From IMG/VR virus record IMGVR_UViG_3300022743_000032, positions 1 through 20,034 of that record: a DNA stretch of 20,034 bases; one strand, 5' to 3'. The notes under the pieces are model-generated. The model did no database searches and was not told the DNA's origin. It saw nothing but the letters and a program-made list of their open reading frames with translations. Shown one piece after another: positions 4,765-14,048 of this stretch. The stretch comes from a virus. A program made the position numbers and the translations under genes. How positions within the stretch are numbered: the first letter of the stretch is position 1; each line of letters opens with the position of its first letter.

Positions 4765-5853
4765 TCAAGAGATGATGGATTTAATGAACTTGAATGCGGT
4801 GTTGGCATTCACGGGGGAGACCAACAGACGGACATTCACACCGCTGATATCTGCATCATAATCTGCCAAATCCTGCCCTGTCGATATGTTTCCATATTCG
4901 ATCATGGTCACAGTGGAGCCATCATGCACAAGCATCAATTCCGTCGTTTGGTAAGTCGTGCCGGATGCAATTTGGATTTGATATTTAACGGAACGACATG
5001 ATGTTTTCAAATTTACGTCCAATATTTGATTTTGAGCAGTGGTAGTGGATACGTATGTTCCGGAATTGATGGCACCCACCCCGGTCAAGTTTAGTGAACT
5101 GGATGAATTTTGCGAAACTGCTGCGGTCACGACTGGTGTGATTGCTGCAATCAATGCACTGGTGTAATCCACGGATTGCGCCCAACTCAGTGTTGAAATT
5201 TCCGTAATTTTACCTGAACTGTTCACTACAATACTTGGGATGCCGGATGCGCCCCCGTAGATTCCAGCAGTTAGGCCGGATGCTGTTGGAACGTTCAATG
5301 AATCCGCATACGCCTTGGCGGTGTTTAGTGCAGTCTGTGATGCAGCATCCGCATAAGATTTTGTGGCAATTGTGGAATCAACGGTGAAACTGCCCGTGGT
5401 AGAGTTATATTGAATCCCGGCAGTTGCGGAAAATTGTGACCTTACTGAAGTGCTAAAATCTGGAATTTGAGTAGATTGCAATGACAGCGGAACATTACTG
5501 GCATCTGAAATTCTTCCCTTAGCATCAATCGTAATTTGGGGTATTGTGCTTGTCGATCCATATAATCCGGAAATCACGCCCGTCTCAGACAAAACAGTGG
5601 AGATGGCATTTGTACCGGAGCCAGTAATATCGCCATTTAATGAGGTGATTTTATTTGAAAGATCGGTTGCCGTCAGAATGTTGGCAAATGTTGCCCCGTC
5701 AGAAGTGATTTCCCATTTTTTAGTGGATTCATTCCATCTTAGTTGCGATGATGGTAGACTTCCCCTAGTAACCCTGATTCCAGAGTTTACAGTAGGCGTG
5801 CCTGTTGTGAAGTTACCATTCAGGTCAATATAAGTATCGGCAATTGTAGTCAT
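4765..5853 (-). CDS. tail fibre protein
   Basis: This 362-residue protein is rich in Ser, Thr and Ala, as is typical of trimeric tail fibres. An N-terminal segment (GIRVTRGSLPSSQLRWNEST) is of the fibre-attachment type. It has two copies of the fibre motif GxYGxxxxIPxIxxxxxGxI (about residues 97-120 and 200-223) and a KSYADAASQTALNTAKAYAD coiled-coil piece between them. The last 90 residues form a compact domain that also ends the 1483-residue fibre protein at 9597-14048 (shared SVKYQIQI/TVKYLVQI, NISTG-DLA-DADISG, RLLV-PVNA). The gene starts after a GATAAATA box at 5878-5885, with GGA seven bases before the ATG. Confidence 0.78.
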   Translation of the reverse strand: MTTIADTYIDLNGNFTTGTPTVNSGIRVTRGSLPSSQLRWNESTKKWEITSDGATFANILTATDLSNKITSLNGDITGSGTNAISTVLSETGVISGLYGSTSTIPQITIDAKGRISDASNVPLSLQSTQIPDFSTSVRSQFSATAGIQYNSTTGSFTVDSTIATKSYADAASQTALNTAKAYADSLNVPTASGLTAGIYGGASGIPSIVVNSSGKITEISTLSWAQSVDYTSALIAAITPVVTAAVSQNSSSSLNLTGVGAINSGTYVSTTTAQNQILDVNLKTSCRSVKYQIQIASGTTYQTTELMLVHDGSTVTMIEYGNISTGQDLADYDADISGVNVRLLVSPVNANTAFKFIKSIIS

Positions 5854-6306: not shown

Positions 6307-6338
6307 AAAAAAAGGGGAGCAACATGCTCCCCTTTTTT
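6307..6338. terminator. bidirectional intrinsic terminator
   Basis: GGGGAGCA (6314-6321) pairs with TGCTCCCC (6325-6332) around an ACA loop. The stem is flanked by seven A on the left and six T on the right, so it has a T-run in either direction. It can end both the rightward gene at 5963-6271 and the leftward DGR/small-gene unit ending at 6359. Confidence 0.9.
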
Positions 6339-6358: not shown

Positions 6359-6595
6359 TTATTGGAAATCGGCCTTGGTGAAGCCAAATCGCTCAATCGT
6401 GGCGAGGTCTTCCACATCAGACCATACTGGCTCGATTTTGGCACCTTCGTATCCGACTTGACCATATCCGTCCGGATATACAGCAGTATCTTGCTTGCGG
6501 GTCATGGAGCCCTTCAAATATTCCATGAATTGTGCGTAGGCAGGGGTGCCCACCAATGCGTCTAGGTCATCGCGGGTATTGATTTGTTCTTGCAT
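6359..6595 (-). CDS. small protein overlapping the RT gene, unknown function
   Basis: This 78-residue acidic protein starts inside the 3' end of the reverse transcriptase gene (34-base overlap, different frame). The ATG at 6595 is chosen because AAGGAA lies close upstream; in-frame codons further up lie wholly within RT. It has a short helical N-terminus (TRDDLDALVGTPAYAQFM), a Tyr/Gly-rich middle (VYPDGYGQVGYEG) and a C-terminal W-DVEDLATIERFGFTKADF motif. I do not recognise a function. It may be a conserved small phage structural or assembly protein, or a DGR-linked accessory; only its position supports the latter. Confidence 0.65.
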   Translation of the reverse strand: MQEQINTRDDLDALVGTPAYAQFMEYLKGSMTRKQDTAVYPDGYGQVGYEGAKIEPVWSDVEDLATIERFGFTKADFQ

Positions 6596-7605
6596 TTTAG
6601 TTTCCTTAAAGTTTGAGTTAAATGATTGCAATCGGCCCACATAGTGTGCCCGTCCCAACTTGCCCAAAACTTGTCCAAGTCAGATGATGTATTTAGCGTT
6701 TTAATCTTGTGCTTGGCCCTTTTGACAGAATCTTTTCGGATTAACGTATGCGTTTTCCAAGAACGATAGCCCACAAAGTTGATCCCATTTTTCAAAGGAG
6801 ATACTTGCCATTTGCTGATCTTCAATTTCAATACATTGTTTGAAAACTCTTGGATTTTATTGAAAATGTCCCTCAACTCTTCTGGATCATCTCCCAAAAT
6901 GACAATATCATCCATGTACCTGACCCAATGCCGCCGTTTCAAGGTATGATGAATCAAATAATCAACTTCCGATGCATATACATTTGCCATCAGTTGACTT
7001 GTCAAACTGCCAATCGGAATTCCAACCTGATTTCTAGGAATAATTTCCTCGATCAATGCAAGAGTCGCCCTGCAATGAATCTTCTTTTCGATCATGGGCC
7101 ACAATACATCATGATCAATGGATGCGAAGTATTTTGAGAAATCCGTTTTCAGGAAATGAGTGAAGTTTTGGGTTGGGTCTTTGAGATATTCTTTGATTTT
7201 CATCAATGCCGCATGAGTTCCCATTCCTTTTCGGCATGCAAATGTATTGGGGAGCAACGTTTTATCGAAAATTGGACCAATTACATTGCAAAGAGCGTGC
7301 TGGATCAACCGATCTTTAAATCCCAGTGCAGAAATTTCGCGTGCCTTTGGCTCGTAGATCACGAATTTACGGTATGGCCCAATTTTGTATTGACCTGTTT
7401 CTAATTCGTCTTGGATTTGGTACAAATTCCATTGATCGTATTCCCGAAATTCCAGATACCCGAATGTATACTTTTTGTTTTTTGAAGTATTCTTGTATGC
7501 CAATCGCAGATTGTCAATATCCATGATCCGGGTCATCAGATTTCGATTTCGTTTGCTCATTTGTTGTATGCGTATTGGGTTATTGAAAATCACCCGCTTT
7601 TCCAT
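6562..7605 (-). CDS. DGR reverse transcriptase
   Basis: This 347-residue reverse transcriptase copies the template-repeat RNA into adenine-mutated cDNA. The RT motifs are in order: YEPKAREISALGFKDRLIQH (84-103), RKGMGT (125-130), catalytic D155 in FLKTDFSKYF, IGSLTSQ (198-204), and YMDD (230-233) with two catalytic Asp, then INFVGYRSW (275-283). The SQ ending of IGSLTSQ is the DGR hallmark; group II intron RTs have QGxxxSP there. Length fits DGR RTs, and there is no maturase or endonuclease domain. The ATG at 7605 has no good ribosome-binding site, so translation may depend on coupling or RNA structure, or may begin at the ATG for M16. It lies 143 bases after the TR, in the usual DGR order avd-TR-RT. 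Confidence 0.96.
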   Translation of the reverse strand: MEKRVIFNNPIRIQQMSKRNRNLMTRIMDIDNLRLAYKNTSKNKKYTFGYLEFREYDQWNLYQIQDELETGQYKIGPYRKFVIYEPKAREISALGFKDRLIQHALCNVIGPIFDKTLLPNTFACRKGMGTHAALMKIKEYLKDPTQNFTHFLKTDFSKYFASIDHDVLWPMIEKKIHCRATLALIEEIIPRNQVGIPIGSLTSQLMANVYASEVDYLIHHTLKRRHWVRYMDDIVILGDDPEELRDIFNKIQEFSNNVLKLKISKWQVSPLKNGINFVGYRSWKTHTLIRKDSVKRAKHKIKTLNTSSDLDKFWASWDGHTMWADCNHLTQTLRKLKCKNKSIPAMT

Positions 7606-7748
7606 ATTTCAGTAGTCGGCAGGTATTTTCTTTTTAACTATCTATTCGCCGAAGCAGGTCAAGTCGGTTGACTACCTGATTTAATATTAAATCATGGGTC
7701 TGCGGATAGCTCCGTGGATACTATCCAGCAAAAAACTGAGAGATGGAA
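7606..7748 (-). ncRNA. DGR RNA spacer between TR and RT
   Basis: In known DGRs (Bordetella phage BPP-1) the RNA just 3' of the TR is required for cDNA priming, and the spacer there is of similar size. Here the 143 bases contain several pairings: GGATAG/CTATCC (7704-7709, 7721-7726), a perfect 16-base palindrome GATTTAATATTAAATC (7678-7693), GTCAA/TTGAC (7658-7662, 7668-7672), and CAGGTA/TACCTG (7620-7625, 7673-7678). No gene is visible. The function is inferred from position and family knowledge. Confidence 0.6.
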
Positions 7749-7865
7749 GTCATAGGCCCCGCGAGCCCCGATGTTGTTGTTCGAGTTCGTGGCAGAGTTG
7801 TTCCAATTCGAGGCACGCGAGCCGGAGTTCGACCCGTTGTTCCAATTGGCACCAAAAAGCGCGGC
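7749..7865 (-). repeat. DGR template repeat (TR)
   Basis: This 117-base segment matches VR (8538-8654) at constant offset with no gaps. On the transcribed minus strand the TR has 26 adenines; 17 differ in the VR, while all 91 other bases are identical. Read in the VR frame it holds eleven Asn codons (nine AAC, two AAT), the standard DGR design in which A changes reach many residues but never a stop. The segment is not itself in a gene. It lies 30 bases after the avd stop and 143 before RT. The GC-rich end at 7749-7771 is the IMH* counterpart. Confidence 0.97.
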
Positions 7866-7895
7866 TAATTCCCAAATTGACCTTATTTTAAAATT

Positions 7896-8312
7896 TTAAA
7901 CAGTTTCTTGCTTTTTCTTATTGGTTGCCTTATTTCTATTTTTAATCCAAATGCCAAGCATGTTTCCACATTCGGAAATATATGCCTGTGCGACTGCATG
8001 TTGATGTTGTGTCAATGCTTTAATTTTAAGAGTCACGGCAGTTTGCATGCACTCTCGAAGACATGCAAGCCCGGCATCGGCCTCATACAACTTTGAAATT
8101 TGATTGCTTTTCCCGGCACGAACAAACAAATTAGGCTGGCTCAACAAAACATCAAGGAACATTTCCTTGAATGCACCATGTTCTCGTGGAATTGTCTGGA
8201 CAATTGGATACAGATATTGGAGAACCCTTTGATATTTTTGATTGATTGCCATCCCCTCGTAGCTGAGATTTTCATCTTTGGTGATGTCTGATTCAGGTTC
8301 TTGTGTGTGCAT
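7896..8312 (-). CDS. avd: DGR accessory variability determinant, Avd-like
   Basis: This 138-residue helical protein is the Avd partner of the RT. In BPP-1, Avd forms a pentameric ring of four-helix bundles that binds RT and template RNA and is needed for mutagenic retrohoming. The assignment rests on size, position immediately before the TR, and the helix pattern: YQRVLQYLYPIVQTIPREH (about 27-45), FKEMFLDVLLSQ, then ISKLYEADAGLACLRECMQTA near 72-92 and a C-terminal helix with a basic NRNKATNKKKQ tail. The ATG at 8312 lacks a strong ribosome site; an ATG at 8252 with GAGGGG too close upstream is the alternative. A sigma70-like promoter lies 37 bases upstream. Confidence 0.88.
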   Translation of the reverse strand: MHTQEPESDITKDENLSYEGMAINQKYQRVLQYLYPIVQTIPREHGAFKEMFLDVLLSQPNLFVRAGKSNQISKLYEADAGLACLRECMQTAVTLKIKALTQHQHAVAQAYISECGNMLGIWIKNRNKATNKKKQETV

Positions 8313-8348
8313 TTTGTTTGTACCATTCAGTGTTGTTGCGATGACCGA

Positions 8349-8377
8349 ATTGTAGCAGAGTTTGAATTAATCACCAA
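8349..8377 (-). promoter_or_regulatory. sigma70-like promoter for avd-TR-RT
   Basis: On the minus strand TTGGTG (-35, 8377-8372) and TACAAT (-10, 8354-8349) are separated by exactly 17 bases, and the -10 is preceded by TGC (extended -10). This is host-type, unlike the TAAATA boxes elsewhere in the window, and is placed just after the terminator of the target gene. Confidence 0.7.
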
Positions 8378-8397
8378 ATGATTTTTGAACTTTTTAT

Positions 8398-8428
8398 AAA
8401 AAAATTGGCGCGTACCCGCGCCAATTTA
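8398..8428 (-). terminator. intrinsic terminator of the DGR target gene
   Basis: AAATTGGCGC (8403-8412) pairs with GCGCCAATTT (8419-8428) over ten pairs with a six-base loop; on the minus strand a run of seven T follows. It ends the target-gene transcript and separates it from avd. Confidence 0.92.
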
Positions 8429-8447
8429 AAGTTGCCCACAACTTTAT
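8428..8447 (-). repeat. hairpin next to the target-gene terminator
   Basis: TAAAGTTG (8428-8435) pairs perfectly with CAACTTTA (8440-8447) around a four-base loop (TGGG on the minus strand). It abuts the terminator stem, so the target mRNA 3' end has two stacked hairpins. Confidence 0.6.
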
Positions 8448-8503
8448 ACTCACCATTATCCTAGAATTGCCCACTATATAATTAGAATTATGCGGACAAA
8501 CGA

Positions 8504-8516
8504 GGCGGCTTCCGCC
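8504..8516 (-). repeat. hairpin downstream of VR
   Basis: GGCGG (8504-8508) pairs with CCGCC (8512-8516) with a three-base loop, 21 bases after the end of VR and just past the stop codon. DGR targets often carry a hairpin or cruciform after the IMH that aids target recognition. This one is shorter than the usual 7-10 pairs, though flanking GA/TC can extend it across a bulge. The role is inferred. Confidence 0.5.
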
Positions 8517-8519
8517 ACC

Positions 8520-9524
8520 TCACCCAAGAATCAGGTGGTCACAGGCCCCGCGAGCCCCGATGCTGTTGAGCGAGAACGTGGCAGAGAAGTCCCAAGCCGA
8601 GGCACGCGAGCCGGAGAACGACCCGAGGTCCCAACTGGCACCAAAAAGCGCGGCATTTTCCATTTGATATGTGGAACCTCTTCCCACAGTGTTTGCAATC
8701 CATCCTGCAGCAGCAGCGCCGCCACCGAATTCATCACCCCAAATCCACATGTTACCGGATGACAACATGACGCCCCACTTTGAAGTATATGCTTCTCTAA
8801 GGATGGTATTGACTGGATCAGTGCCAAATGATGCGGCCTCTGTCGTACCAAATGCCAATGCAGCGAATTCTGAATATGTGGGCATACGCTTGCCATATGA
8901 GCGCATCACTTCGGCAGATTCCCACCAGTTCAATGAAGTATAAGTTGTAGTACCGTCACCACCAAATGCAACGGGAACTTTGGGTGGACTTGCACCATCC
9001 GCAATCGTCACGTTATATTTTGAAGTGCCATTAGTGATATGATCCACACCCAATAAATAGATGTCGGCCCAGAAGCTATTAGCCACCAGTGTCATGCCAC
9101 GTGCATCAGGGCATTCGGGTTTAAAGTTTAAATCCCAAAAACTATATGCATTAATTGCAGGAGTAGTGTCGCCACCAGTGCGACCAGTGGCATTACCACC
9201 CGGTGCATAGTGAAAGCCACCCAGTTTCTTTGCACCAGTGGATGGGGGCGTAGTGAAGTTGGATGTTGCACTCAATGCACCAGTTGTGGAACACCAAATT
9301 GCATAGTCAGTGCCAGTCACTGGGGTGGGCATGGATACAACAGTACCGGAACCAATAACGGCCATTACGCCGCCCAATTCAACATACAAATCCATTGCAG
9401 TTGATACAGAAAATGCACCAGTTTTGGTCCATGCCACTACCGATGGGTTAGCCTTACCGAAAGCAGCACTGCGGCTACTGTTATAGCCTTTAGCCATGGT
9501 TGCTAAATCGCGTGATCGTGTCAT
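8520..9524 (-). CDS. DGR target: C-type-lectin-fold variable protein, putative tail adhesin
   Basis: This 334-residue protein is the diversified product. The C-terminal two-fifths is a formylglycine-enzyme-like C-type lectin fold, as in BPP-1 Mtd and other DGR targets: WESAEVMRSYGKRMPTYSEF (about 201-220), SKWGVMLSSGNMWIWGDEF (248-266) and the closing GARGACDHLILG. The VR covers residues 291-329. Compared with the TR, codons 297, 299, 300, 303, 310, 312, 313, 317, 319, 321 and 328 are changed; all but 328 come from Asn codons. The N-terminal 120 residues are Gly/Thr-rich and beta-like, possibly for attachment to the virion. AAGGAA lies seven bases before the ATG. Its place among fibre genes suggests a receptor-binding tip protein; that role is inferred. 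Confidence 0.93.
   Translation of the reverse strand: MTRSRDLATMAKGYNSSRSAAFGKANPSVVAWTKTGAFSVSTAMDLYVELGGVMAVIGSGTVVSMPTPVTGTDYAIWCSTTGALSATSNFTTPPSTGAKKLGGFHYAPGGNATGRTGGDTTPAINAYSFWDLNFKPECPDARGMTLVANSFWADIYLLGVDHITNGTSKYNVTIADGASPPKVPVAFGGDGTTTYTSLNWWESAEVMRSYGKRMPTYSEFAALAFGTTEAASFGTDPVNTILREAYTSKWGVMLSSGNMWIWGDEFGGGAAAAGWIANTVGRGSTYQMENAALFGASWDLGSFSGSRASAWDFSATFSLNSIGARGACDHLILG
8538..8560 (-). other. initiation of mutagenic homing (IMH) site
   Basis: The GC-rich end of VR, at the 3' end of the coding strand, is where cDNA joins the target in characterised DGRs. It is identical to the TR end except at 8542 (G in VR, A in TR, coding strand), which changes Tyr in the TR reading to Cys328 in the protein. 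IMH and IMH* commonly differ, which sets the direction of copying. The exact boundary is inferred. Confidence 0.65.
8538..8654 (-). repeat. DGR variable repeat (VR)
   Basis: This 117-base copy of the TR encodes residues 291-329 of the target protein. It differs from the TR at 17 sites, all of which are A in the TR; the substituted bases in VR include G, T and C. Similarity ends abruptly at both edges (7748/8537 and 7866/8655). Confidence 0.97.
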
Positions 9525-9596: not shown

Positions 9597-12500
9597 TCAG
9601 ACGGCTACTGCAGTCTTGATTACCTTGAAGGTTGTCGCGGCATTCACTGGAGTCACCAACAACCGCATGTTACCGCCGCTGATATCTGCATCAAACGCAG
9701 CCAAATCACCGCCCGTGGAAATATTGGCATACGCCACTAGATTCACGTTAGTACCATCATGCAAGACCATCATTTCGATGGATTGATATGCAGTACCAGA
9801 AGTAATTTGCACCAAGTATTTCACTGTACGAACAGCGGAAATAGCGTTTGTATCCAACACCTGTGACGCAGCAGTCGTGGAGGTCACCAACGATGCAGTA
9901 TCGATAGTGCCAAGACTATCAATTACCACAACAGAAGTGTTCACCCCGCCGTTTAACGACACGGCAGTTGAAGTGGTCGCACCACGTGCAGTCACGGAAG
10001 CCAAGGTGTCTGTTTCAGTGTATGAAGTCAAGAACCCGGCACCGTTAGTCAATTGTGACGTGTTGGTGGGGATTGAAATCACACCAGTAGCAGCGTTATA
10101 ACCGGCAGCGCCAGCAACAAACGACACCGCAGCGCGTGCACGAGCATCCGTATAGTATTTTGCAGATGAATCTTCACCAATATCAGCCGTGGTCAACACG
10201 ACAACACCAGTCTTGCCAGCAACAGAAGTCACTGCATCCACAAACCCGATCACACCCGTAGTCGCGTTATAAGTCAAGCCACCAGACACTGAAATTGCAT
10301 TACGCACACCACTTTGTGACAAGTAACCGGCATCGTTGGTCAAACCTGACACTGCAGTAGGAATAGTGGGCTTACCAGACAAATCAGCATAAGCACCAGA
10401 AGATGCCACTGCTGCCAAACCTAGGTTAGTGCGAGCATTGACTTTCTGTGATGCAGATAGACTCTGGGTGTCGATGTCCACGCGCAACCGATTGCCCAAT
10501 GAAGTAGCAGTCGTGGTTGCGAAGTTTGCATCGTTGCCCAAAGCTGTTGCCAATTCGTTCAAAGTGTCTAGTGCGGCAGGAGCAGAAGCCACCAATGCAG
10601 CCACTTTCGTGTCAGTGTAGGTATTAGCAGAAGCCAAAGTGGAACTAGCAACACCATCCGCATACACTTTGCTTGACAATGCAGCCAAATCAGAAGCGTT
10701 TGCCTTCAATGCCAACTGATTATCAACATAAGTTTGATCAGCTTTTAGAACCAACTTGGCATCCGCTGCAGTCTTGGTGTACGCATCAGTGATACCATAA
10801 CCAGCCAAAGTAGTTGCTTTGTCAGCTTTACCGGAGACGGTAGAAACCATATTAGCCAAAGAAATTTCATCAGCCGCCAATTGCGTTGCGATCTTAGCCA
10901 ATGTGTTCAGTGCACCCGGTGCAGCACCCACCACTGATTGAATTGAATCAGAAACTTGGGCAGCAGTCTGATAACCAGCATCGTTGGTCAAGTCGGACAC
11001 ATTTGTGGGTAGTGTGGGTAGACCACGTAGATCAGAATAGTTGCCAGAGAACAATGCTGGCTTGCCGATCAAATCTGCATAACTGCCCGAGAACAATGCA
11101 GGCTTGTTGGTCAAATCTGCATAAGAGCCAGAGAACAATGTTGGTTTGCCAGTCAAATCTGCATAAGAGCCAGAGAACAATGTTGGTTTGCCAGTCAAAT
11201 CCGCATACGCACCAGTCAATGCAACTGTGCTCAATGCAGAGGCAGCAGCGTAACCCGCAGCAGCGATTGCTGTTTGAACTTGTGAAGCATTCTGATAACC
11301 AGCATCGTTTGTGAAGCTAGAAACCGCAGTAGGAGTGCCCGTTAAATCAGTATAGCGACCAGAAGTTGCAACGGAAGCCAAGCTGGTGATGTTTGCTTTG
11401 TGATCCAACGCTGCATCCACCGCAATCTTGGTATATGCATCAGTGATGCCATAACCTACCAATGTAGTTGCTTTGTCAGCCTTACCGGAAACAGTGGTGC
11501 TTAGTGCAGAAACCTGATTGGTCAGTGCAGCAGCAGCAGACTCGTCGTTAGCCAACGCAGTCGCCAAATCACCCAATGTCTTCAATGAAGATGGAGCAGC
11601 ACCGATGACAGCTTGAATCTTGGCGTCAACTGCAGCACCCGATTGATAATTAGCATCGTTAGTAAATGCAGAAACAGCAGCAGGAGCACCGGTTAGATCA
11701 GCATAACGGCCAGAGAATAGACCGGATTTGTCTGCCTTTTGGCTCAATGCAACTGAAACATCAGCAGCATTTGCTTTTAGTGCTAGGCCCTGATTCACTG
11801 AAACGATATCAGCTTTACCGGAGATAGCATTAGCCACTGCAGCAGCAGTTTGATAGCCAACATCATTGCTGAATGCGGAAACAGCAGTAGGAGTGCCAAT
11901 TAGATCAGAATACAGACCAGAGGTGGCAACAGGGGCCAAATCGGCGGCAACAACTGACACACCCTTTAGATCGGCAATGCGGTTGCTCAATGCAGTCTCA
12001 GCAGCCACTGCACGGATTGATTCTGATGCAATATTAGCGGCCAAACCTGCTTCTGCAATTTCAGCACGCTGGGTTTCAGCCAATACTGAGGAATCCACGC
12101 CAGACTTAGAGTAAGCATCAGTGATGCCGTAACCAGCCAATGTAGTGGCTTTTGCAGCTTTACCGGCGAGTGCGGCATCGCTATACGCCTTGGCAGATGC
12201 CAAAGTGGCAGCATCACCGGCAATACGAGCATTTGTTTCAGTAGTAACGCTATCTGCACTTGCTTTAGTATTAACCAAAGTCTCTAATGCAGTCACGCTA
12301 CTGGCAGACGCCTTACCGGCAACAGTAGAGGCGAGGGCAGTAACAGCGGACTCGTCGGATGCCAATTGGGCCGCGATTTCTTGCAAGGTGTCCAATGCAG
12401 CAGGAGCAGCACCGATTACAGCTTGAATTGTGGAGTCAGCATATGCCTTTGCAGATGCAAGAGTTGCTGCATCGCCACTAACACGAAGAGAAGCTTCACT

Positions 12501-14048
12501 TGAAACTACGCCATCAGCGTAAACTTTGCCAGCAGCCAATGTATCGGCATCACCGCTAACCCGAAGCACTGCCTCGGCAGCAACGGCAGCATCGGTATAT
12601 GTAGAAGCATCTGCAGCAGCAGTAGACACACTGCCAGTCAATGCAACAATAGAATCTGCAATCTTGGCATCGGTGTATGACTGTGCAGTCGTGACCGCAG
12701 CATTAACTGCATTGGTGCGGAAAGCAGCTTCAGATGCAACTGCACCGTCAGTATAAGTCTTACCAGCAGCCAAAGTAGCAGCATCGCCTGAAGTACGGGC
12801 AATAGCTTCCAAATCAATCTGTGAATCAGTGTAGTTCTTGGCACCAAGTGCAGTAGCAGCATCGCCAGAAGTACGAATAGCAGCCTCAGCAGCAACGGCA
12901 TCATCTGCATATGTTTTAGCAGTGGACAAGTTTGCAGCATCAGCGGAAGCACGCAATGTAGCCTCGGCATTCACGGCAGTTGCCATTGCAGCATTAGCGG
13001 CAGATAGTGTGGAAGCATCACCAGACGCACGGGAAATCGCCTCATTTGCAACGATGTCATCAGCGTAACTCTTACCAGCAGCCAATGTGGCAGCATCACC
13101 AGCAATACGCAAAGATGCTTCAGCAGCAACGGCAGTATCAGTGTGAGAAGTAGCTTGATTTAGAACACTTGCATCGCCGTCTGCACGTAGATTTGATTCA
13201 TCCAAAATCTTACCGTCCACATATGCCTTAGCAGCATTCAATGTGCCAGTATCACCGGCTGCACGAGCAGTGGCTTCAGCAGCAATAGCACTGTTAGCGC
13301 TTGTGCCCAAAGAGGTGATTGCATTATTCAAGTTGCCATCAGCACTCTTGAATGCAGCCACGATTTCAGTCATGCTATCCAAAGCAGCAGGATCAATGTT
13401 GCTCACCACATCGTCAATACGTGCGCTTAAAGCAGCATCAGCAGCAATACGAGCAGCAGTCTCAACCGCCACAGCATCAGATGCAATTTTTGCAGTTTCA
13501 GCCTTGGTATAAACCTGCGCAAAACTTGCAGCAACGGCTTGAGCCATAGCAACTGGATTGTTGTTCACAGTGATAACACCGTTTGCATCACGTAGGGTCA
13601 AAGTACCCAACGTGATATTCGAGGTGGCTTCCACAGTCACAGCATTGACATACTGGAGGGAGAACATCACCACGGTACCGGTGGTGGCTTCTGAGAGGTG
13701 AATGATTGCGGTATTATTGTCCACAATTTCAATGTTTGCAAGCATGAGTCTGTGATTGTTATCATAGACAAAGTATGCGAAATCAGTTGAATTGAAGTTG
13801 TGGGTAACAGTCCATGCAGTACTTGCAACACCCTGTGTGTGCAAATATGAAGCCTGCTTTAGGCCCATGGGTTGCCATGAGAAATAACCAGAACCGTTAA
13901 TGAGTTCGGTATAAATGTATGGAACACCCTGTTTCACCACGATAGTGCGGGGTTTTGGGTCTACTGGAAAATCAGCAAAGTTCTTGCCGAAACTTAGTGC
14001 ACCAGAGACTTCAACGTCGCCTAAAATGCGAATATCATTTGTTGACAT
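9597..14048 (-). CDS. very large modular tail fibre protein
   Basis: This 1483-residue protein is a long tail fibre. Its N-terminus has a capping segment (PVDPKPRTIVVKQGVPYIY) and a beta domain with TAWTVTHNFNSTDF (about 77-91). From about residue 185 to 470 lie many units of roughly 25 residues of the type AEAxxRxSGDAATLxAAKxYADxxI, predicted to form a trimeric coiled shaft. Then come alternating modules PAALDTL-EIA-QLA-DESA, KATTLAGYGITDAYTK (three or more copies) and YADLTGKPTLFSGS (tandem, about residues 945-1000). The last 90 residues are the same domain as in the 362-residue fibre protein. AAGGA lies eight bases before the ATG. Probably co-transcribed with the two small genes upstream. 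Which T4 fibre it corresponds to cannot be told. Confidence 0.9.
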   Translation of the reverse strand: MSTNDIRILGDVEVSGALSFGKNFADFPVDPKPRTIVVKQGVPYIYTELINGSGYFSWQPMGLKQASYLHTQGVASTAWTVTHNFNSTDFAYFVYDNNHRLMLANIEIVDNNTAIIHLSEATTGTVVMFSLQYVNAVTVEATSNITLGTLTLRDANGVITVNNNPVAMAQAVAASFAQVYTKAETAKIASDAVAVETAARIAADAALSARIDDVVSNIDPAALDSMTEIVAAFKSADGNLNNAITSLGTSANSAIAAEATARAAGDTGTLNAAKAYVDGKILDESNLRADGDASVLNQATSHTDTAVAAEASLRIAGDAATLAAGKSYADDIVANEAISRASGDASTLSAANAAMATAVNAEATLRASADAANLSTAKTYADDAVAAEAAIRTSGDAATALGAKNYTDSQIDLEAIARTSGDAATLAAGKTYTDGAVASEAAFRTNAVNAAVTTAQSYTDAKIADSIVALTGSVSTAAADASTYTDAAVAAEAVLRVSGDADTLAAGKVYADGVVSSEASLRVSGDAATLASAKAYADSTIQAVIGAAPAALDTLQEIAAQLASDESAVTALASTVAGKASASSVTALETLVNTKASADSVTTETNARIAGDAATLASAKAYSDAALAGKAAKATTLAGYGITDAYSKSGVDSSVLAETQRAEIAEAGLAANIASESIRAVAAETALSNRIADLKGVSVVAADLAPVATSGLYSDLIGTPTAVSAFSNDVGYQTAAAVANAISGKADIVSVNQGLALKANAADVSVALSQKADKSGLFSGRYADLTGAPAAVSAFTNDANYQSGAAVDAKIQAVIGAAPSSLKTLGDLATALANDESAAAALTNQVSALSTTVSGKADKATTLVGYGITDAYTKIAVDAALDHKANITSLASVATSGRYTDLTGTPTAVSSFTNDAGYQNASQVQTAIAAAGYAAASALSTVALTGAYADLTGKPTLFSGSYADLTGKPTLFSGSYADLTNKPALFSGSYADLIGKPALFSGNYSDLRGLPTLPTNVSDLTNDAGYQTAAQVSDSIQSVVGAAPGALNTLAKIATQLAADEISLANMVSTVSGKADKATTLAGYGITDAYTKTAADAKLVLKADQTYVDNQLALKANASDLAALSSKVYADGVASSTLASANTYTDTKVAALVASAPAALDTLNELATALGNDANFATTTATSLGNRLRVDIDTQSLSASQKVNARTNLGLAAVASSGAYADLSGKPTIPTAVSGLTNDAGYLSQSGVRNAISVSGGLTYNATTGVIGFVDAVTSVAGKTGVVVLTTADIGEDSSAKYYTDARARAAVSFVAGAAGYNAATGVISIPTNTSQLTNGAGFLTSYTETDTLASVTARGATTSTAVSLNGGVNTSVVVIDSLGTIDTASLVTSTTAASQVLDTNAISAVRTVKYLVQITSGTAYQSIEMMVLHDGTNVNLVAYANISTGGDLAAFDADISGGNMRLLVTPVNAATTFKVIKTAVAV
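11047..11214 (-). repeat. 42-bp tandem repeat array within the large fibre gene
   Basis: Four copies of a 42-base unit begin at 11047, 11089, 11131 and 11173. The third and fourth share more than 30 identical bases. Each encodes the 14-residue fibre motif with consensus SGSYADLTGKPTLF. Confidence 0.85.

Follow-up and report, generated by a model that had tools for sequence, protein, structure and literature searches.

A complete diversity-generating retroelement of the BPP-1 type among the tail-fibre genes of a probable jumbo-type myophage

The viral IMG/VR record analysed here, 20,034 bases long and covered in full by the window, carries on its minus strand what we take, with a probability of about 0.93, to be a genuine and complete diversity-generating retroelement (DGR) of the BPP-1 type, set among the tail-fibre genes of a myophage of jumbo type. 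DGRs of this kind were discovered in a small phage of Bordetella, and the BPP-1 cassette, the best-studied phage tropism-switching cassette, is known from small temperate podophages. The mechanism is already known; the novelty lies in the variety of phages that carry the cassette and in the relation between mtd and its neighbour bbp4.

Results

On the minus strand, where all parts of the element lie, an Mtd-like target gene with a variable repeat (VR) is followed by avd (accessory variability determinant), the template repeat (TR) and the gene for a DGR reverse transcriptase (RT). The frames of RT, Avd and target are all open and uninterrupted and each matches the expected family, in agreement with the initial annotation, which had described all parts as intact and in standard DGR order. 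The target (8520-9524) encodes an Mtd-like receptor-binding protein of 334 amino acids (Pfam mtd_2nd, 4e-13; phrog_11262, tail protein, 1.5e-109) that is 52-53% identical to BPP-1 Mtd, although only residues 19-333 match the Mtd structures (PDB 1yu0-1yu4) and the N-terminal domain of BPP-1 Mtd is absent. The VR occupies residues 291-329, and it is thus found, as in other DGRs, at the 3' end of a gene for a C-type-lectin target, as judged by homology to 1yu0-1yu4. Avd (7896-8312, 138 amino acids; bAvd, 1.9e-26; phrog_3206, Avd) is 51% identical to its BPP-1 counterpart. The RT (6562-7605, 347 amino acids; RVT_1, 1e-20; phrog_1423, 5e-113) matches the PDB 8ub7 family (3e-118), its nearest solved relative being the BPP-1 RT, and carries YMDD and the DGR-type IGSLTSQ, which correspond to the YxDD and [IVL]GxxxSQ of the DGR clade. 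The closest RTs among annotated phages belong to BPP-1 of Bordetella and sibling phages (56%; next <40%), and a single-sequence RT search of IMG/VR returned no close relative. Met16 at 7560, which aligns with the start of BPP-1 Brt, is the likely start of the protein; the 15-residue extension of the listed start (7560-7605) overlaps the conserved spacer RNA of relatives.

The TR (7749-7865) and the VR (8538-8654) align over 117 nucleotides without gaps (7865-7749 against 8654-8538 on the minus strand), and the TR also aligns with the BPP-1 TR without gaps. TR and VR differ at 17 of the 26 TR adenines (A to T in eight cases, A to G in six, A to C in three) and at 0 of the 91 other sites, and the chance that all 17 mismatches would fall on adenines under random placement is 2.6e-14 (hypergeometric), so that the alignment and counts reported initially hold. 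Neither a repeat finder nor a whole-record search detected a third repeat copy or a second VR in the record. The initial annotation had further read all 17 mismatches as the direct product of mutagenic retrohoming, which stands for about 16 of them. Mismatch 113 (TAT in the TR, TGT in the VR) is located 3' of the GC element, and the corresponding position is G in 75 of 76 TRs and in all VRs with the motif TGTGAC/T (present in 72 of 76 relatives), A occurring only in the TR of this record (1 of 76). Hypermutation is rejected for this site on account of the G in nearly all relatives; the simplest reading is that this TR has changed, the mismatch being a TR/IMH difference and no product of mutagenesis, and the change would have stayed separate from the VR if, as in BPP-1, the IMH region is not replaced by retrohoming. 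With a derived A in the TR at this position, about 16 sites rather than 17 therefore record mutagenesis.

The DNA and RNA elements expected around the repeats are likewise present. The IMH (8525-8558) comprises a GC-rich element, GGGGCTCGCGGGGCC (8558-8544), followed by CTGTGACCACCTGATTCTTG (8544-8525), and an alignment revealed that the latter, the 20-nucleotide IMH part downstream of the GC element in the VR, is identical to that of BPP-1. Beyond it lies a target-site hairpin or cruciform (8502-8521) with an 8-bp stem and a GGAA loop, which fits GRNA; like its BPP-1 counterpart it overlaps the stop codon of the target, and it folds at -16.6 kcal/mol (z -3.3) and has a detectable GRNA counterpart in 64 of 78 relatives. 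Target recognition in BPP-1 depends critically on such a hairpin, and in phage DGRs hairpins with GRNA loops are located 4-34 bp from the VR (PMC3240598). The window thus holds an IMH with a GC element followed by a hairpin with a 4-nucleotide GRNA loop, the arrangement by which the BPP-1 type is defined (PMC3240598). Downstream of the TR, a spacer RNA (7606-7748) contains the conserved core CCTGCTTCGGCGAA (7658-7645). This structured core and its covarying helices are common to this record and 41 relatives, and of the 22 consensus pairs in the 42-sequence alignment, 16 are altered at both positions in a compensatory manner in one or more sequences. The anatomy of the element, its adenine-only pattern and its conserved RNA and DNA elements are matters of direct observation, and the RT motifs, Avd, the TR/VR pattern, the IMH, the GRNA hairpin and the spacer RNA together bear out the description of the DGR as complete, although the initial list of parts, correct for target, avd, TR and RT, did not mention the target-site hairpin.

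IMG/VR scans with RT and Mtd profiles yielded about 145 related loci, from which a set of 78 non-redundant TR/VR pairs, this record's included, was compared. Across these pairs 54% of TR adenine sites differ, as opposed to 0.6% of non-adenine sites, and the adenine-only pattern is therefore general for the BPP-1-type DGR family. The same pattern in 78 orthologous pairs supports the original proposal of adenine-specific retrohoming acting on a tail receptor-binding protein. In one related locus (L042, 6188-7321) a single TR serves two VRs, at spacings of 1549 and 535.

The absence of any non-adenine difference between TR and VR supports recent retrohoming, in line with the initial description of the element as recently active, but a recently silenced element would look identical. 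By the rule of three (about 3/180, for some 90 sites in two copies) zero differences bounds decay since the last retrohoming at about 2% or less, and because it does no more than this, retrohoming is judged recent and not necessarily current; the claim that a dead element would lose the pattern was too strong. It is nevertheless unlikely that the DGR, active until recently, is now silent, for example through a terminator-like insert or the altered TR position 113. The VR-TR spacing is 789 nucleotides, compared to 520-569 in relatives if the second VR of L042 is set aside, since about 200 nucleotides separate target from avd, with a terminator-like stem-loop and T-run (8402-8427; z -4.3) between them, in extra spacing that relatives do not have. 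This stem-loop, the derived A where 75 of 76 relatives keep G, and a promoter scan that gave no excess of promoter-like sites over shuffles would all fit a silenced cassette, but the 117 aligned nucleotides without a non-adenine difference and the intact frames, IMH, hairpin and spacer RNA core argue against silencing, and a promoter of its own for avd-TR-RT could account for the terminator. We therefore retain recent activity as the preferred reading. The layout suggests that target and machinery are transcribed separately, and given the unusual target-avd spacing with its terminator-like element, expression may differ from that in BPP-1. A second strong terminator-like stem-loop is located at 6308-6338, after bbp4.

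The module also reaches beyond the extent first assigned to it (6562-9524, with coordinates and counts that are correct), since a fifth gene, a bbp4 homologue encoding 78 amino acids (6362-6595, minus strand; 67% to BPP-1 Bbp4), follows the RT gene. A role for bbp4 as a DGR accessory factor required for mutagenesis would agree with its location directly 3' of the RT in 109 of the 111 related loci with enough sequence and with a conservation about equal to that of the RT. We consider this role quite unlikely, since bbp4 directly follows mtd in relatives that lack avd, TR, RT and hairpin (L089, L090, L095, L107, L109, L126, L138 and others), and since, conversely, a T4-like contig (L075, 1-7447) has a BPP-1-type DGR (avd, TR, RT) directly before gp13-gp17 and no bbp4. 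As bbp4 abuts mtd in the DGR-less loci, the avd-TR-RT block therefore occupies the interval from mtd to bbp4, and Bbp4 is to be grouped with Mtd. On this distribution, bbp4 is probably a conserved partner of mtd and not part of the mutagenesis machinery, and its product may be a tail-fibre partner or chaperone that serves the Mtd protein in assembly or attachment. Longer Bbp4 homologues have C-terminal extensions, one of them with DUF4376 and a tail-fibre PHROG; a confident AlphaFold model of Bbp4 (pLDDT 91) had no significant fold match in PDB or BFVD, and a literature search for Bbp4 returned nothing. Three further arrangements were observed. In L151 (3141-3758) the interval from mtd to bbp4, where other loci have the DGR, contains a different gene, judged by eye to resemble an HNH-type homing endonuclease; in L104 (3842-6376), as in L105, L108 and L110, two tandem copies of mtd precede bbp4 with no avd or RT between; and gp17 of L075 is apparently interrupted by a homing-endonuclease match.

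The genes around the element point to a jumbo-type myophage. A gp15 homologue (1381-2739) is nearest to those of the jumbo phages Phosso (469 kb), Atu_ph07 (490 kb) and PA5oct/Paride (287 kb), and the order virion gene, gp15, NUDIX forms a conserved block shared with Paride: all three genes match Paride, and gp15 and the gene before it also match Phosso and Atu_ph07. The initial term "T4-like" is broadly right with respect to the gp15 family, but on both flanks the nearest relatives are jumbo myophages of the PA5oct/Paride/Atu_ph07 type. The jumbo size of the source phage would follow from these relatives, the record itself being a 20,034-base fragment. Relatives of fibre genes from either side of the DGR occur together in gp15 loci, and the two flanking fibre genes (4765-5853 and 9597-14048, both on the minus strand) resemble each other in a C-terminal domain some 90 residues long. 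A search for related RTs, with a query that did recover the RT of this record, identified none in the PA5oct/Paride, Atu_ph07 and Phosso genomes tested or in 16 related IMG/VR records, and the RTs of this record and of L075 form long isolated branches (p-AU 0.28 for a one-clade test). That the contig is a chimera, a fragment of a jumbo phage joined to the DGR of another phage, would account for a related RT in no other PA5oct/Atu_ph07-type record tested and for the isolated branch, but is very improbable given that the fibre genes on one side (f3548 and f4765) and on the other (fib9597) have relatives that co-occur in gp15 loci (L161, L173, L191 and L194 among them), that the C-terminal domain is common to both flanks and that the GC content of RT and avd (0.40) is close to that of the neighbouring structural genes (0.42-0.45).

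Discussion

We propose that the element works in steps carried over by analogy from BPP-1. A transcript containing the TR and the structured spacer would bind RT and Avd, and cDNA synthesis would introduce errors at TR adenines. Guided by the IMH and the GRNA hairpin, the cDNA would then reach the Mtd-like gene at its 3' end and replace the VR there, converting nine AAY codons of the TR to codons for other residues; stop codons would not arise from mutagenesis of AAY, as every NNY codon encodes an amino acid. The receptor-binding surfaces would thereby come to differ among progeny phages.

As far as sequence can indicate, the BPP-1-type cassette may thus work not only in small temperate podophages but also in large myophages, a group in which host range matters in practice. 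A testable point is that bbp4, a small conserved gene, accompanies the hypervariable adhesin with or without the retroelement. We tentatively suggest, at somewhat less than even odds, that the unit of transfer is the mtd-bbp4 receptor-binding pair, that the avd-TR-RT block and the hairpin move into it or out of it, and that Bbp4 acts as partner or chaperone across virions. If so, Bbp4 would be a dedicated factor through which a hypervariable adhesin could function in virions of very unlike kinds, that of a jumbo myophage among them.

Among known systems, the jumbo phages PA5oct/Paride (Arenbergviridae), Atu_ph07 and Phosso resemble this record in the shared virion block (36-55% protein identity), but this record carries an RT of which PA5oct/Atu_ph07-type phages had no relative where tested. 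A survey of 224 jumbo phages (2021) reported no lectin domain of the kind diversified by DGRs (PMC7824862), and the RT of a Staphylococcus aureus jumbo phage is without DGR features according to its authors (PMC10638138); a BPP-1-type DGR is apparently previously undescribed in giant phages of the PA5oct/Atu_ph07 type. The BPP-1-type loci of IMG/VR (L007-L151, L236-L280) have the same module, adenine-only TR/VR pattern and bbp4 neighbour, but differ in their shorter VR-TR spacing (520-569), and at the sensitivity used they contained no PA5oct-type structural genes. With the DGR of BPP-1 (mtd-avd-TR-brt) the element shares gene order, orthologous RT, Avd, target and bbp4, the 20-nucleotide IMH, a GRNA hairpin over the stop codon and homologous TR and spacer RNA. 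The two differ in that BPP-1 Mtd has an N-terminal domain that the target of this record lacks, in the gap of about 200 nucleotides with a terminator-like element between target and avd and the derived A at TR position 113 found here, and in their vehicle, a 42-kb Rauchvirus in the case of BPP-1 and a jumbo-type myophage in this one.
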